Positions 11,047 to 28,343 of a stretch of 28,343 nt of DNA are shown here, one piece after another. Origin of the DNA: a virus; the IMG/VR virus record IMGVR_UViG_3300009481_000071, positions 1 through 28,343 of that record; one strand, 5' to 3'. The translations under genes were made by a program, and so were the position numbers. Positions within the stretch are counted from its first letter, which is position 1. Each line of letters opens with the position of its first letter. The notes under the pieces are model-generated. The model did not search any database and was not told where the DNA came from. It saw only the letters and a list, made by a program, of their open reading frames with translations.

Positions 11047-11214
11047 TTATTCCATAAACCAAATCACTGAACGGGAATCATCTTGTCCTTCTATAACTTC
11101 AGGCATTTCCTTAGAAGTTAAGGCCATTTCAATATCTCTTAGTATTCTCTGCCACGCAATAGAGTCATAAGGTTCAGGTGCATCTGCAAAACTACTGTTT
11201 AATAATCGCGCCAT
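11047..11214 (-). CDS. Small acidic phage protein (55 aa)
   Basis: A 55-codon frame beginning at the TAATG overlap with the previous small gene and ending one base before the next ATG. The sequence is MARLLNSSFADAPEPYDSIA, then WQRILRDIEMALTSKEMPEVIEG, and ends SRSVIWFME. It looks like one amphipathic helix plus a short strand. Small proteins of this style lie next to nozzle genes in marine podoviruses, as far as I recall. The function is unknown. Confidence 0.65.
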   Translation of the reverse strand: MARLLNSSFADAPEPYDSIAWQRILRDIEMALTSKEMPEVIEGQDDSRSVIWFME

Positions 11215-11372
11215 TATATACCCTTTATTCTAATTTTTGTTTTTCCACGAATAGCTTCACCGTCTACTGGGCAATTCATTCCGCCATGTTTATAATTTTT
11301 TTTCCATTTCTTATAAACTTTAGGCTCATTAATTTTTAAATACGTTTCTTGTTTCTTTGATTTAAAAGGCAT
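11214..11372 (-). CDS. Small basic phage protein (52 aa)
   Basis: A 52-codon frame that starts at the ATG overlapping the nozzle gene stop (TAATG at 11372) and ends in a TAATG overlap with the next gene at 11214. The protein is strongly basic (MPFKSKKQETYLKINEPKVYKKWKKNYKHGG, then IRGKTKIRIKGI). It contains a single cysteine in MNCPVDGEA. No domain is recognised. The linked overlaps at both ends support it as a real gene. Confidence 0.65.
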   Translation of the reverse strand: MPFKSKKQETYLKINEPKVYKKWKKNYKHGGMNCPVDGEAIRGKTKIRIKGI

Positions 11373-21204: not shown

Positions 21205-22104
21205 TTAAATCCTTAATGACTGTTGTGTTGGTACTAAACGTAAAGCAACTCTTTCGCTATCCTCTGCTGCGGCACGTTGCCACTCTTCATCGTACATTTG
21301 TTTTAAAAGTCCTATTCTTTGAGGAGCACGTTTAACAGCTAAATAATAAGAAAGTCCTGCAACTAAACACGGTAAAAAACGAAAAGGAACATCGGGAGTG
21401 TTTTGTGAAGTTCCTACGTCTTCAATGCGTTTTACACGATAGTATACTAATTGATCTGTAGAGTTAATTGGAGCAGGCCATACAGTAATAATAGGTGTTA
21501 TTTGTCTATCTACGTAATATTGAGTAGGTCTTCCTTGGGATGTTTTATCAGGAATAGCAAGATAATCTCCTCGACTTATTCTTCCTATCGATATATCAGA
21601 ACCATCTCTACGTATAACCGCCTCTAAGATATCTACCGTAGCTTGTGTATCTGTTAAACTAGGAACAGTAGTTACTGCTGTTACTGTTCCGCTAGTGCTT
21701 CCTGTAACATCATCTGTTGCTACAAAAGTTCCTACGGGCACCGTTATAGTAATGGTAGTAGCTGTAGGTTTAGTAATAACCTTAGCAGTGGCTCCGCTTA
21801 CAGAACCTGTAATTGTTTCGCCAATAGTCAAATTAGCAGAAGCAGCTACTGTTAAAGTAATTGTTCCTAAAGGATATTCTGTAATAGCAGATGTTGTAGA
21901 AAGTTGTGCCATAGTTTGTGTCACTTCTTCTACCACCCAAAGATTTAAACCACGATTAGCCCAATCTGAGAACAAAAGATTTAAAGAACGACGTGCTGTT
22001 TTAGCGTCATAACCTGTACGTAATTCTAAACCGCAACGTTCATAAGCTTCTTCAATAATTTCTGCTATACTTAAATTAAAATCTACAGTTCCTGAAGTAG
22101 CCAT
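21205..22104 (-). CDS. P22 gp4-like tail accessory / head-tail connector protein with inserted beta module
   Basis: Residues 10-65 (LSIAEIIEEAYERCGLELRTGYD, ARRSLNLLFSDWANRGLNLW) and 155-299 (DILEAVIRRDGSDISIGRISRGDYLAIPDKTSQGRPTQYYVDRQ, TVWPAP, VPFRFLPCLVAGLSYYLAVKRAP, YDEEWQRAA) match the P22 gp4-like family, which binds below the portal and closes the DNA exit. Members I recall run straight from the helical part into the second half. Here about 70 residues (roughly 80-150) are inserted, very rich in Thr, Val, Ile and Gly with GETITGSVSGATAKV and DDVTGSTSGTVTAV. The stop is one base from the next start. The family call is firm; the insertion is discussed in findings. Confidence 0.8.
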   Translation of the reverse strand: MATSGTVDFNLSIAEIIEEAYERCGLELRTGYDAKTARRSLNLLFSDWANRGLNLWVVEEVTQTMAQLSTTSAITEYPLGTITLTVAASANLTIGETITGSVSGATAKVITKPTATTITITVPVGTFVATDDVTGSTSGTVTAVTTVPSLTDTQATVDILEAVIRRDGSDISIGRISRGDYLAIPDKTSQGRPTQYYVDRQITPIITVWPAPINSTDQLVYYRVKRIEDVGTSQNTPDVPFRFLPCLVAGLSYYLAVKRAPQRIGLLKQMYDEEWQRAAAEDSERVALRLVPTQQSLRI

Positions 22105-23481: not shown

Positions 23482-24393
23482 TTATGATGTTCCTGGAGAT
23501 CCATAAACACAACGTGGATCTGAGTAACCGTAGCTGTAACGCTCACGGGCTTTAAATCTTACGTTGCCTGTATCGAAATCGCCTTCCATCTTAGTAGACA
23601 TGCTTAAACGTTCAAAGTGAATAAATCCACGTGGAGCGTCTGTTTTCACAAACCATGCGTTAGCATCGTTTAAGAAGTGATTAACTGTGTAACCCTGTGG
23701 AAGCATTCCCATGTTTCTCATAGCGTTAACATCGTTATCAGCAGTCCCAGGACGTAATGTAGACTCAAGAAGTCTATCAGCTACGAACTGTAAGTTGGAT
23801 GGAACTATCAATTTAGTACCTTGTACGGACACTTTTAAACCGCGTTCGTCAACGTAACCGCCTATGTCTATTAAAGCATTTTCAAGACTAGTTTCGTTAA
23901 GGTCAGCAGCTGTTGTAGGTCTATTAGCAAATGTACTACCAGTTACCAATGGGTGAGATGTATTAACTAAACTTACACCATCACCACCTGTTATACTAGC
24001 TGTGAAAGCATCGTTTAATATAGTTGCACCTTTAACCTGTTTAGTGTGTGCCATACTTCTTGCTAAAGCTTTTGTATAACGAGAAGCTAGACGATCATAA
24101 AGATTATCTTCGATCGCTTCTTCTGTTATTGAGAAAGCTAATGCAATTGTTTCGTTATTATACCTTGCGGTATAAGCTTCTTGTGCATCGTCAAATGATA
24201 CTGCACCACCCTCGCTTTTAACGGGTGCTGCGCCAAAACCAGATAGCATTACTTCTTCTTCGAATGCTCTTTCTGATGATTCTGTATCAAAGATTTCTGC
24301 CGCTTCGTTTTCATACCTGTTATACTCAAGACCAAAAAGGGCGTTGAGTCCAGGTTCTAGCTCTTTGGCGAGCTGTGCTCTAGATATTGCCAT
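23482..24393 (-). CDS. Major capsid protein (Mu gpT-like, HK97 fold)
   Basis: At 303 residues it has the usual length for a gpT-like major head subunit. Characteristic parts are an N-terminal helix (SRAQLAKELEPGLNALFGLEYNRY), an acidic segment ending in FEEEVMLSGFGAAPVKSEGG, YNNETIALAFSITEEAIEDNLYDRL, then helix RYTKALARSMAHTKQVKGATILNDAF followed by LVNTSHPL. The latter half has IVPSNLQFVADRLL and a terminal block with ARERYSYGYSDPRCVYGS. The ribosome binding site AGGAAGGA is strong. It follows scaffold in the standard order and is followed by a GC-rich hairpin. It is the subunit of the icosahedral shell. No separate N-terminal delta domain or protease is evident. Confidence 0.88.
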   Translation of the reverse strand: MAISRAQLAKELEPGLNALFGLEYNRYENEAAEIFDTESSERAFEEEVMLSGFGAAPVKSEGGAVSFDDAQEAYTARYNNETIALAFSITEEAIEDNLYDRLASRYTKALARSMAHTKQVKGATILNDAFTASITGGDGVSLVNTSHPLVTGSTFANRPTTAADLNETSLENALIDIGGYVDERGLKVSVQGTKLIVPSNLQFVADRLLESTLRPGTADNDVNAMRNMGMLPQGYTVNHFLNDANAWFVKTDAPRGFIHFERLSMSTKMEGDFDTGNVRFKARERYSYGYSDPRCVYGSPGTS

Positions 24394-25587: not shown

Positions 25588-26484
25588 TTACTCCTTCACA
25601 TATTTTGCGTATTCTTCTAACGGTACGCCTAGTTTCTTTGCTATTGCTACTTGTGAGGGCGACAACCGCACACTTTTTCGTCCACCTTTGTTGCGGGATT
25701 TAGAAGTCTCAGCAGACGCAACTTTACGACTTCCTCCGTTAGTAGTCTGTGTTCCCAGCTTATGAGGAAACTCAGACGCTAATCTTTTATCGAGTTCAGC
25801 ATAATATGCTTCACTTGATGGGTCAAACCCTTCATCCTCAATTAAACGCCTGTGGATGCCAAATGAGGCATATGTCATAACTTCATCTTGACCAAACCAC
25901 TCATTTTTGTTAGCCCACGCTTCCGCTTTTGGATCTGGCGGCTGCTGCGTTTGTTGTGGCTGCTGCATTTGTTGAGGTACAGGTTGTTGAGTTTGAGGCG
26001 CAGGATCAATCTCTCCTATGGGTTTCTTTAACTTTGTTTTTTCAACTGTTAAAGTAGCCAAAGCTTCTTGCGCTTCTATAAGTCTGTCACTATCTCCAGA
26101 CTCATGTGCATCTTTCATTGCACGTTTTGCGCTATTAAGCTGAGATTCTATCCGTCCTCCAAATTCTTCTTGATATCCTTTATCTAAATTTTGTAAACGA
26201 TTTTTTAAAGACTCATTTTCTTTCTTAACGTTTTCTGCAAATTCAACCGCCGATTGTTTTTGGCGTTCTTCTTCGCGCATACGTTTAGTAAGTTTATCAA
26301 TACGGGTTTTAACACCTGCACTGTAATCTTCTAACTCATCTTTTTTTTCTTCATCTTTTTCTTCGATTATTTCAGTTTCTTTAGGTGGTTCCGTTTCGCT
26401 TTTAATTTGTTTAGCGTCAGGATTTACATCTACTTCTACGGCTTCTTCTTCCGCTTCGCCAACGTCTAGTTTTTCGTCTGCCAT
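25588..26484 (-). CDS. Capsid scaffolding protein
   Basis: The protein has the composition and layout of a phage scaffold. Residues 1-50 are very acidic. Residues 55-155 are charged and likely coiled coil. Residues 159-184 form a Pro/Gln-rich linker (repeated QQP). A conserved-looking globular block follows with NEWFGQDEVMTYASFGIHRRL and YYAELDKRLASEFP. The basic C-terminus ends RLSPSQVAIAKKLGVPLEEYAKYVKE, split by a likely turn at GVP. In known scaffolds such as P22 gp8, a basic C-terminal helical element binds the coat protein. It sits two genes before the capsid gene, as expected. The ribosome binding site is AAGGAG. No protease domain is seen, so it is not a scaffold-protease fusion. Confidence 0.8.
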   Translation of the reverse strand: MADEKLDVGEAEEEAVEVDVNPDAKQIKSETEPPKETEIIEEKDEEKKDELEDYSAGVKTRIDKLTKRMREEERQKQSAVEFAENVKKENESLKNRLQNLDKGYQEEFGGRIESQLNSAKRAMKDAHESGDSDRLIEAQEALATLTVEKTKLKKPIGEIDPAPQTQQPVPQQMQQPQQTQQPPDPKAEAWANKNEWFGQDEVMTYASFGIHRRLIEDEGFDPSSEAYYAELDKRLASEFPHKLGTQTTNGGSRKVASAETSKSRNKGGRKSVRLSPSQVAIAKKLGVPLEEYAKYVKE

Positions 26485-26514: not shown

Positions 26515-26985
26515 CTATATATGTTTAACATCATCAGGTTCTAAAATTGTAGCAATCACTTCGTCATCATTAATGATACGAACTTCTCCGCCATCTATTT
26601 TAAAACGCGCTCCAGCGTATCGGCCAATACAAACCCATTGACCTTCGTTGCACCAAACAGGTTCGCCTGATCCAAACTTTGCAGGATCTTTATAAGCTAA
26701 AGGTCCTATTTTTAGTACATAAGCAACGACGGTTGCCAATTGCTCACGTTCTCGCACAGCATCGGGAATATAAATTCCTGAGTCTGTTGTAGCTTTCCCC
26801 ATATAAGGCATGACTAAAATACGCCATCCTGTTGGTTGAGGAAGTCTTTCCTTGAGGTTTTTCTCTATTAAACTCGGATCAAGAACTTTCGTGTCTTGCG
26901 GTTTATAAAGTGGTTCGACATTAATCTTCTTAGTTTTCTTCTTTGCTTTCGCAACGTGATCGGGCACATAAAGTGTTTTCGACAT
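26515..26985 (-). CDS. GroES-like co-chaperonin
   Basis: The protein matches the chaperonin-10 (GroES) fold from about residue 50 to 149. It begins with PTGWRILVMPYMG, where GroES proteins have their first strands. The segment TTDSGIYIPD (67-75) sits where the GroEL-binding mobile loop with its hydrophobic tripeptide is expected. The family's closing strands follow as VVAYVLKIGPLAY, WCNEGQWVCIGRYAG and a C-terminal RIINDDEVIATI. About 49 lysine-rich extra residues precede the domain, so the protein is longer (156 aa) than a typical GroES (about 97). By analogy with T4 gp31 it would cap the host GroEL and help fold a virion protein. Its position directly before scaffold and capsid makes the capsid protein the likely client (inference). 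The ribosome binding site is AAAGG. Confidence 0.85.
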   Translation of the reverse strand: MSKTLYVPDHVAKAKKKTKKINVEPLYKPQDTKVLDPSLIEKNLKERLPQPTGWRILVMPYMGKATTDSGIYIPDAVREREQLATVVAYVLKIGPLAYKDPAKFGSGEPVWCNEGQWVCIGRYAGARFKIDGGEVRIINDDEVIATILEPDDVKHI

Positions 26986-27000
26986 AAGTTTTACCTTTCA

Positions 27001-27198
27001 TTAGCTTTCTTCTTTCTCGTTTTTATCCAGAGCATCTTTAACTTCTTGCTCTGCAAATTGCAAACCTTTTAACTCGCCTGCCAGTTGGCGGTAGTCCTCC
27101 ATAGTTTTAGGACTACCAGCGAGTATGGCCTGTTCTGTTAATGCTATTCTTTCTTGTAACGCTTTAAGAATAGCATATGCAAAATTCAATGGATCCAC
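27001..27198 (-). CDS. Small helical phage protein (65 aa), GTG start
   Basis: The start is GTG, overlapping the stop of the upstream gene as TAGTG at 27198, with AGAGGATC as a plausible ribosome binding site. The protein is almost entirely predicted helix: a hydrophobic first helix (FAYAILKALQERIALTEQAIL), a short turn at SPKTMEDY, then a second helix (LAGELKGLQFAEQEVKDALDK) and an acidic tail. Similar small two-helix proteins occur near the head genes of marine phages. The function is unknown. The stop lies 16 bases before the GroES-like start. Confidence 0.75.
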   Translation of the reverse strand: MDPLNFAYAILKALQERIALTEQAILAGSPKTMEDYRQLAGELKGLQFAEQEVKDALDKNEKEES

Positions 27199-27911
27199 TA
27201 AAAAGATCCTCTAAACTTCGTTCCTTTTACCATCGCTCCTGTGCCACGAACACCTTCCGTTTCACCTAATGAAGCGCGTGAGTTATAACCTTGTATGATT
27301 TTAACGTCTGCTCCTACTTCCATAATACCTTCTTCTGCTAATGAATGTTGTTTATCAAAGTCGGCTTCGGATGGAGAATAGCCTGCGTCTTCTTGTCTTT
27401 CCATAGAAATACTTAAACGACTACCTTCTTCATCTCTAAACTCAATGTCAACACCGCCATGTGCATAGTTTTTAGCAACGCCACCATCTTTACGATTAAT
27501 TTTTTGATTTGGTCTTTTCCCAAAAGCACCGTAAGACTCAACACGACGATCTCTCATGCTTTGGCTTTTTGTTCTTTCAGCCCCAGTACGCATTCCTAAA
27601 GATTCGTCTTCCCTAGCAGCATAACCTTGGCCTCCTTTATTATAAGACATACGCTCACGTTGAATATCGGTCATCCGCTTTCTATTTTCTTTTCTAGTTG
27701 ATCTTCTTCTTTTTGCTCTTTCTATAGCCTCTTCTTTTTTAACATTGTTTTTAGCTCTTTTTATGTCTTCTACATCAGACTTTAAATCTATTTCATACTC
27801 AGTATCCGCTATAGATAAAATCTTTTTTCGTGCTTCTTTTATTTTCTTTTCTTCTTTTTTTATATCTTTTCTTGCTTCTAGACTCTTAATGTTAGGATTA
27901 TATTTGCCCAT
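27198..27911 (-). CDS. Charged helical phage protein (237 aa) with shared C-terminal motif
   Basis: Residues 1-90 are extremely rich in Lys, Arg and Glu and look like one long charged helix (KKEEKKIKEARKK, then KRRRSTRKENRKR). A middle block, DESLGMRTG followed by RDRRVESYGAFGKR, resembles a block I recall from marine phage proteins of unknown function. The C-terminal part is acidic, and the last residues are GAMVKGTKFRGSF, matching the ending of the two genes upstream. The start at 27911 has a good ribosome binding site (AAGGAG). The basic N-terminal region could bind nucleic acid or the acidic scaffold; this is inference. Confidence 0.8.
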   Translation of the reverse strand: MGKYNPNIKSLEARKDIKKEEKKIKEARKKILSIADTEYEIDLKSDVEDIKRAKNNVKKEEAIERAKRRRSTRKENRKRMTDIQRERMSYNKGGQGYAAREDESLGMRTGAERTKSQSMRDRRVESYGAFGKRPNQKINRKDGGVAKNYAHGGVDIEFRDEEGSRLSISMERQEDAGYSPSEADFDKQHSLAEEGIMEVGADVKIIQGYNSRASLGETEGVRGTGAMVKGTKFRGSF

Positions 27912-27926
27912 TATTCTTCTCCTTGG

Positions 27927-28154
27927 TTAATAGTTTCCACTAAAATTACGTCCTCGTATAGCTGCTCCACCTGTAAACATACTATCTCTTACGTTTGCTT
28001 CTTCAAAATCTAATGTGACTCCGCCTTCTGCTTTATTCATATTAGGCCATACTGTTTTAAAAAACTGCTCAAAAGACATGGTAGCAGAATAATCTGTGCC
28101 GTTGCCATCGTAAAAAGCAGCACGTGCTGCTTGTTTATCTTTGCTTTTTGCCAT
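27927..28154 (-). CDS. Small conserved phage protein (75 aa) with shared C-terminal motif
   Basis: A 75-residue protein starting at the ATG that overlaps the upstream stop (TAATG). The N-terminus is charged (MAKSKDKQAARAAF). The middle has aromatic residues (FEQFFKTVWPNM), and the end is GAAIRGRNFSGNY. Its last 13 residues fit the pattern G-x-[AM]-[IV]-[KR]-G-x-x-F-x-G-x-[FY]-stop, which the genes on both sides also carry. No signal peptide or membrane segment is seen. The function is unknown. Its place before scaffold and capsid suggests a head-assembly or internal virion role, which is inference only. Confidence 0.8.
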   Translation of the reverse strand: MAKSKDKQAARAAFYDGNGTDYSATMSFEQFFKTVWPNMNKAEGGVTLDFEEANVRDSMFTGGAAIRGRNFSGNY

Positions 28155-28343
28155 TAGAATATCCCCTTAAATGTAAAACCTTTAATAGCTACGCCTGCAC
28201 GACGGGCCATTCCGCCTCCAGCCATATTCATTTTAGATTGTTGTAAACGTCGTACTCCGCTGCTATGCGCTGCACCACCGCCCATAAAACCATCGCGATC
28301 GTTCATTTTCTTAGCTTTTGCTAACATTCCTTTAGCAGCGTTC
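28154..28343 (-). CDS. Small conserved phage protein, 5' end cut by window edge
   Basis: Only the last 62 codons are inside the window; the gene begins beyond the right edge. The visible part is basic and glycine-rich, with GGGAAHSSG, then RRLQQSKMNMAGGGMARR, and ends GVAIKGFTFKGIF. That ending follows the same pattern as the C-termini of the next two genes (see findings). The stop codon overlaps the start of the next gene in a TAATG junction at 28154, so the reading frame is well supported by context. It lies upstream of the GroES-like, scaffold and capsid genes. I do not recognise a function. Small proteins of this kind are common before the head genes of marine podoviruses (recollection, not a search). 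Confidence 0.75.
   Translation of the reverse strand, partial: NAAKGMLAKAKKMNDRDGFMGGGAAHSSGVRRLQQSKMNMAGGGMARRAGVAIKGFTFKGIF

Follow-up and report, generated by a model that had tools for sequence, protein, structure and literature searches.

A shared C-terminal tail on many unrelated small head-adjacent proteins of HTVC023P-type pelagiphages probably serves as an address label by which a varying set of proteins reaches the particle during assembly

The window analysed here is the whole stretch of 28,343 nucleotides of the viral record IMGVR_UViG_3300009481_000071 (positions 1 to 28,343); related contigs are referred to as L002 and so on. The original prediction was that three adjacent small proteins in this window end in the same motif, and this was borne out for the three genes listed below, all of them on the minus strand together with the neighbouring head genes.

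28154..28342, minus strand: 3' part (62 codons) of an 81-aa tagged protein, its start lying beyond the window edge (full gene, L002:7513-7758)
28157..28195, minus strand: tag 1, GVAIKGFTFKGIF, a pattern match with a tag-profile score of 42 (stop codon at 28154-28156)
27927..28154, minus strand: ORF of the 75-aa tagged protein, whose C-terminal ~32 residues are shared with relatives while the N-termini differ
27930..27968, minus strand: tag 2, GAAIRGRNFSGNY, tag-profile score 21.5, retained in relatives
27198..27911, minus strand: 237-aa tagged protein, aligned as a variable N-terminal module and a conserved C-terminal part of ~95 residues
27201..27485, minus strand: the conserved C-terminal part of the 237-aa protein by alignment (residues ~143-237), with the tag at its end
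27201..27239, minus strand: tag 3, GAMVKGTKFRGSF, tag-profile score 35
27001..27198, minus strand: ORF65, a conserved gene downstream of the tagged cluster (phrog_32603, E 2e-4; family in 69 loci)
26515..26985, minus strand: phage GroES/Cpn10 co-chaperonin (PF00166, E 1.7e-9)
25588..26484, minus strand: putative scaffold of 298 aa, from position and composition (phrog_28737, E 2e-77, no assigned function)
23482..24393, minus strand: major capsid protein, MCP (PF25209, E 3e-11; phrog_371, E 7.5e-24)
21205..22104, minus strand: adaptor-like protein, so named because it is syntenic with the gene annotated as adaptor in phage DSL-LC04

The gene content past the window edge is given by the near-identical contig L002, in which the order is TerL, portal, several small genes, the tagged proteins of 81, 75 and 237 aa, ORF65, GroES, a scaffold-like gene, two unknowns and MCP. 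The window's own GroES gene (26515-26985, minus strand) adjoins ORF65 and the scaffold, and it does so in relatives as well. In relatives, the adaptor-like gene is the downstream boundary of a third tagged slot.

The remainder of the three proteins had been described as unrelated, and we confirmed this by BLASTP. Outside the last 16 residues, the bodies give only chance matches (E ≥ 0.26), so the three are not full-length paralogues, an explanation that the original prediction had itself raised. The tag is kept in 17/17 relatives of the 237-aa gene, departing from the motif only in L016 and L017, where the last residue is L, and the neighbours' tags are kept too wherever those genes are on the contig.

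The core of the tag is [KR]-G-x-x-F-x-G-x-[FY]-stop, and its length is 13 to 16 aa. A position profile of 104 distinct tails gives the extended consensus R-G-x-G-A-A-[IV]-[KR]-G-T-K-F-K-G-V-F-stop, in which R at -16, G at -15, T at -7, K at -4 and V at -2 are conserved although the search pattern left these positions free. That the ends are not shared by chance, the other doubt raised at the outset, came from a count of six-frame ORFs (31,956 distinct ORFs and 1.7 million 13-mers, from loci many of which were chosen for the motif): the exact pattern first proposed, G-x-[AM]-[IV]-[KR]-G-x-x-F-x-G-x-[FY]-stop, was found 163 times at a C-terminus and 2 times elsewhere, both in chance non-coding frames. 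Similarly, the core in the form [KR]GxxFxGx[FYKR] occurs 186 times at the exact C-terminus and once internally in 956,000 residues from head-gene strands. In all of the tagged ORFs among the loci collected at that stage (216/216), the tag is flush with the stop (offset 0).

To follow the tag beyond the window, 2.9 million viral contigs were scanned with a degenerate 42-base DNA pattern of the motif and stop, using no other gene information, and scanned again with a pattern containing CGN arginine codons. The first scan returned at least 120 contigs, and every match listed is an ORF end, with tails like RGTGAAIKGTKFKGVF before the stop. The second also returned at least 120 contigs; 124 of the 127 matches listed score as tagged ORF ends, and the remaining 3 also lie at stops, in ORFs that run off the contig edge. 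The true number of tagged viral contigs is higher than these counts. Among the matches listed, HMMs built from the window's head genes recognised the head genes of the same lineage on 119/120 contigs of the first scan and 117/120 of the second; the four listed contigs without recognised head genes (L099, L296, L382 and L389) are all short loci. The tag is thus confined to one lineage, the HTVC023P-type pelagiphages and their kin. The carrier's portal is 52% identical to that of HTVC023P, and TerL, portal, GroES, scaffold and MCP are homologous to, and ordered as in, this cultured phage.

HTVC023P itself bears the tag on gp32, behind the portal, and on gp51, before the adaptor, both of which are annotated only as hypothetical proteins. 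A tblastn search of cultured phages with a consensus 22-mer returned HTVC023P only (E = 5). This tag, hereafter class A or tag A, is absent from the regions read of HTVC027P, 023Pt_psg01 and DSL-LC04, whose portals are about 50% identical, and is present in 7/29 (strict) to 15/29 (loose) of the portal-selected contigs that span portal to GroES. The tag is therefore not essential to assembly in the lineage.

The tagged genes are confined to a small part of the genome. The head-gene strand encodes 237 of 238 tagged ORFs. The slots they occupy are those between TerL and portal, between portal and ORF65-GroES, between MCP and adaptor, and between adaptor and p168; a rearranged contig, G007, departs from this slot rule. 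In scans of eight long contigs (30-59 kb) and most of HTVC023P, replication and tail-fibre regions held no tags. The search for C-terminal matches suggested with the original prediction thus led to head-neck slots of one phage lineage. Although a position adjoining head genes does not prove that a protein is located in the virion, a peptide that is constant, always terminal, moved between bodies and borne by late head-neck genes of a single lineage argues for a binding tag addressed to a conserved head or neck partner. We consider it very probable that the tail is a functional C-terminal binding tag, and rather likely that it brings its carriers to the assembling head or portal.

The partner might instead be an assembly factor outside the virion, namely the phage GroES with host GroEL, or the terminase, to which the tag would recruit the bodies so that they are folded or take part in packaging. 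Throughout the lineage the portal slot is followed immediately by ORF65-GroES, and the tagged genes also adjoin TerL, but untagged relatives equally have GroES and TerL, and the other tagged slots are far from GroES. We therefore regard such a partner as unlikely, though conceivable, and prefer a component of the head or neck.

The bodies that carry the tag are diverse. Clustering of 245 tagged ORFs (E < 1e-3, 50% coverage) gave 59 body clusters, a number that ranges from 37 to 70 under looser or stricter settings. The median length is 126 aa and 84% of the bodies are net positive. Searches with Pfam and PHROGs found EF-hand/dockerin-like loops in about 5/61 bodies, the others being of unknown type, and hardly any body can be given a function. 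Single calcium loops of this kind (DxNxDGKISGED) were seen in several proteins with tag A or with the tail C described below (L081, L130 and L146:5144-5509). A fold search with one tagged body found no solved homologue, and returned only uncharacterised or DUF5872/DUF6321 phage proteins, one match being labelled 'virion protein' (E 0.55). A domain with the signature WVDIGxPKK...YPKCVP, found in L113:6109-6420 and about 80 other ORFs, resembles DUF5872/DUF6321; a domain of this kind is also present in proteins of T4-like cyanophages, one of which is labelled a virion protein.

Bodies and tails have been exchanged. In the 237-aa family, the N-terminal part is swapped among relatives and the last ~95 residues are almost invariant. 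A domain of ~75 residues with a weak match to DUF5872 carries tag A, a YYGGM[IL] tail, a GCG..RRK tail or a bare end. In a tree of this domain alone, tag A must have been gained or lost at least three times, and the most parsimonious history has 15 tail changes overall, the exact number being soft because the tree rests on only 76 columns. The peptide has thus been transplanted between unrelated bodies.

That the peptide itself is under selection is indicated by its codons. Among 165 distinct DNA versions of the tag, identity is 0.41 at third codon positions and 0.75 at positions 1 and 2, and all four Gly codons are used at tag positions -8 and -3; since the codons vary synonymously, it is the peptide that has been maintained. 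The tag may be closed by any of the three stop codons, and the sequence past the stop is not conserved. These results bear on the possibility that the shared end is left over from common ancestry, or marks a recombination hinge, with fragments swapped upstream of it and no function of its own any longer. The fast turnover of bodies, and orthologous C-terminal halves bearing different N-termini, would be expected of such a hinge. However, the peptide is held despite its diverse DNA, nothing is conserved past the stop, and a neutral remnant would not remain exactly C-terminal in all cases. We judge a remnant or hinge to be improbable, and a selected binding tag remains the preferred reading.

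Applied to bacterial and archaeal genomes (257 Gb; 84,980 species genomes), the first scan pattern gave 11 matches, of which 3 are real tagged genes (L187, L190 and L195) on contigs with head genes of the HTVC023P-type lineage. No host protein ending in the tag was found in this search. Mimicry of a host protein was considered and rejected, the genome matches being lineage contigs binned with marine MAGs and chance frames. The tag has the aromatic, basic and terminal character of many short targeting signals. Rather than in virion assembly, it could in principle act in the host, once ejection has taken place or while the cell is lysed, either by directing proteins to a membrane or the envelope or as a stabilising C-terminus. 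We think this quite improbable: tagged genes are found only in head-neck slots, the long contigs showed no tag among their early and replication genes, and host genomes hold no such tag. Finally, a DNA-level element (a regulatory or recombination site) translated by accident is extremely improbable, for although the genes are tightly packed and 113/183 tag stops overlap the next start codon, it is contradicted by the synonymous diversity of the tag DNA, by the codon analysis and by the absent downstream conservation.

In assembly, the tag could be a transplantable docking peptide displayed on a flexible C-terminal tail. In the AlphaFold model (AF2) of the 237-aa protein, pLDDT is below 50 for residues 116-237, and the tail is predicted to be unstructured (pLDDT < 50) in models of two tagged proteins, this one, with a helical body, and another with a small mixed fold; low confidence at the tails is compatible with disorder but is no proof of it. 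We propose that the tag would bind to a conserved part of the head or neck during assembly, which may be the portal, scaffold, capsid, adaptor or ORF65. Through docking, a rapidly changing assortment of small late proteins, most of them basic, would gather at the prohead; they could then become part of the virion and perhaps leave it along with the DNA. Portal, adaptor and capsid had no usable match among solved structures, so no receptor is proposed from structure. Co-evolution of tags with a genome-specific receptor was also considered; the tags of a single genome resemble each other only as much as their families would predict, and hence give no sign of it. Of the shared sorting or docking tag originally predicted, the genuine C-terminal tag, its selection as a peptide and its place beside head genes have stood, and docking would be its most plausible role.

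In phage T4, a short N-terminal peptide, the capsid-targeting sequence (CTS), is common to the small basic internal proteins IPI, IPII and IPIII, which are otherwise diverse and have bodies that change from one relative to another. The CTS sends these proteins to the prohead core and is removed by the gp21 protease (PMC3012670, PMC9026906). In both systems, one short peptide is placed on otherwise unrelated phage proteins (59 body clusters here), and the carriers are small, basic and hypervariable. In contrast to the N-terminal CTS, the pelagiphage tag is C-terminal in every case, and no sequence likeness between the two was noted. Pfam and PHROGs recognised no prohead protease in the window's portal-capsid interval, which includes two conserved genes (165 and 213 aa) without an assigned function. 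Since the T4 peptide is N-terminal and proteolysed, the pelagiphage tag falls outside the CTS family as defined; by analogy, the best reading is nevertheless that it would work like the CTS.

Cargo-loading peptides of encapsulins are C-terminal, lie on flexible tails and are common to different cargo proteins, and the pelagiphage tag resembles them in its position, its apparently flexible tail and its various carriers. However, its neighbours are the terminase, portal, capsid and adaptor of a tailed phage, with no encapsulin shell, and this parallel, drawn in the original prediction, is weaker than that with T4. The ejection proteins of podophages (P22 gp7, gp16 and gp20; the T7 core proteins) are internal to the virion and leave it with the DNA (PMC8402733). 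Unlike these, the tagged proteins are small, basic and hypervariable.

Class A is one of several interchangeable tail types, which the original prediction overlooked. Untagged and partly tagged members led to three further classes on unrelated small proteins in the same slots as tag A: class B, GCGxV..RRKxTK (in fuller form GCGxVxxxRRKxTK), found 19 times near the end and 0 times internally; class C, YY[KG][DG][LMI], 74 near the end and 5 internal; and class D, TKMKYV, 6 and 0. The statistics of B to D are weaker than those of class A because these tails were spotted by eye and counted afterwards. The consecutive proteins gp51, gp52 and gp53 of HTVC023P bear tails A, C and C. Examples of tail C are YYGGMIEI, YYKDIM and YIKDLL, each ending at the stop (L146:4864-5509, which is HTVC023P gp52 and gp53; L174, L171, L223 and L253). 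Class B, as [AK][KR]GCGxVxxxRRKxTKxx-stop, nearly always lies two residues before the stop (L144:12451-12648, L231, L020, L066 and others). Ends of the form TK[MY]K[YI][VL]-stop are common to adjacent unrelated proteins in L081:3605-4232 and L127:3269-3887. The N-terminus of HTVC023P gp43 (L140:17636-17953), MLNSYYDDILGF, resembles a YY-type tail, as if the motif could also start proteins. In the window, a basic 52-aa protein at 11214-11372 (minus strand) ends in GEAIRGKTKIRIKGI before its stop, which is reminiscent of the tag but does not match the pattern. It is a tentative and rather doubtful possibility that the tails form a combinatorial C-terminal address code, in which interchangeable bodies are joined to alternative tails A-D and each tail would lead to a different head or neck site.

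A text search found no paper with the motif strings and no description of such a tag, and literature searches on the motif strings and on pelagiphage virion proteomics turned up neither proteomic nor binding data for a tagged protein. As most subscription journals and preprints fell outside the scope of these searches, novelty is not proven.

If the shared address tag is real, dozens of orphan families would acquire a testable function in one stroke, metagenomes could be searched with the motif for proteins that are part of the virion or are ejected, and foreign proteins could be loaded into phage heads by means of a short C-terminal handle. Such a tag would also mean that the strategy of T4, in which a constant targeting peptide serves variable internal proteins, arose again at the opposite protein end in unrelated phages. 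Should the tails form a combinatorial code, a phage group that ranks among the most abundant in the ocean could rapidly re-mix its cargo.
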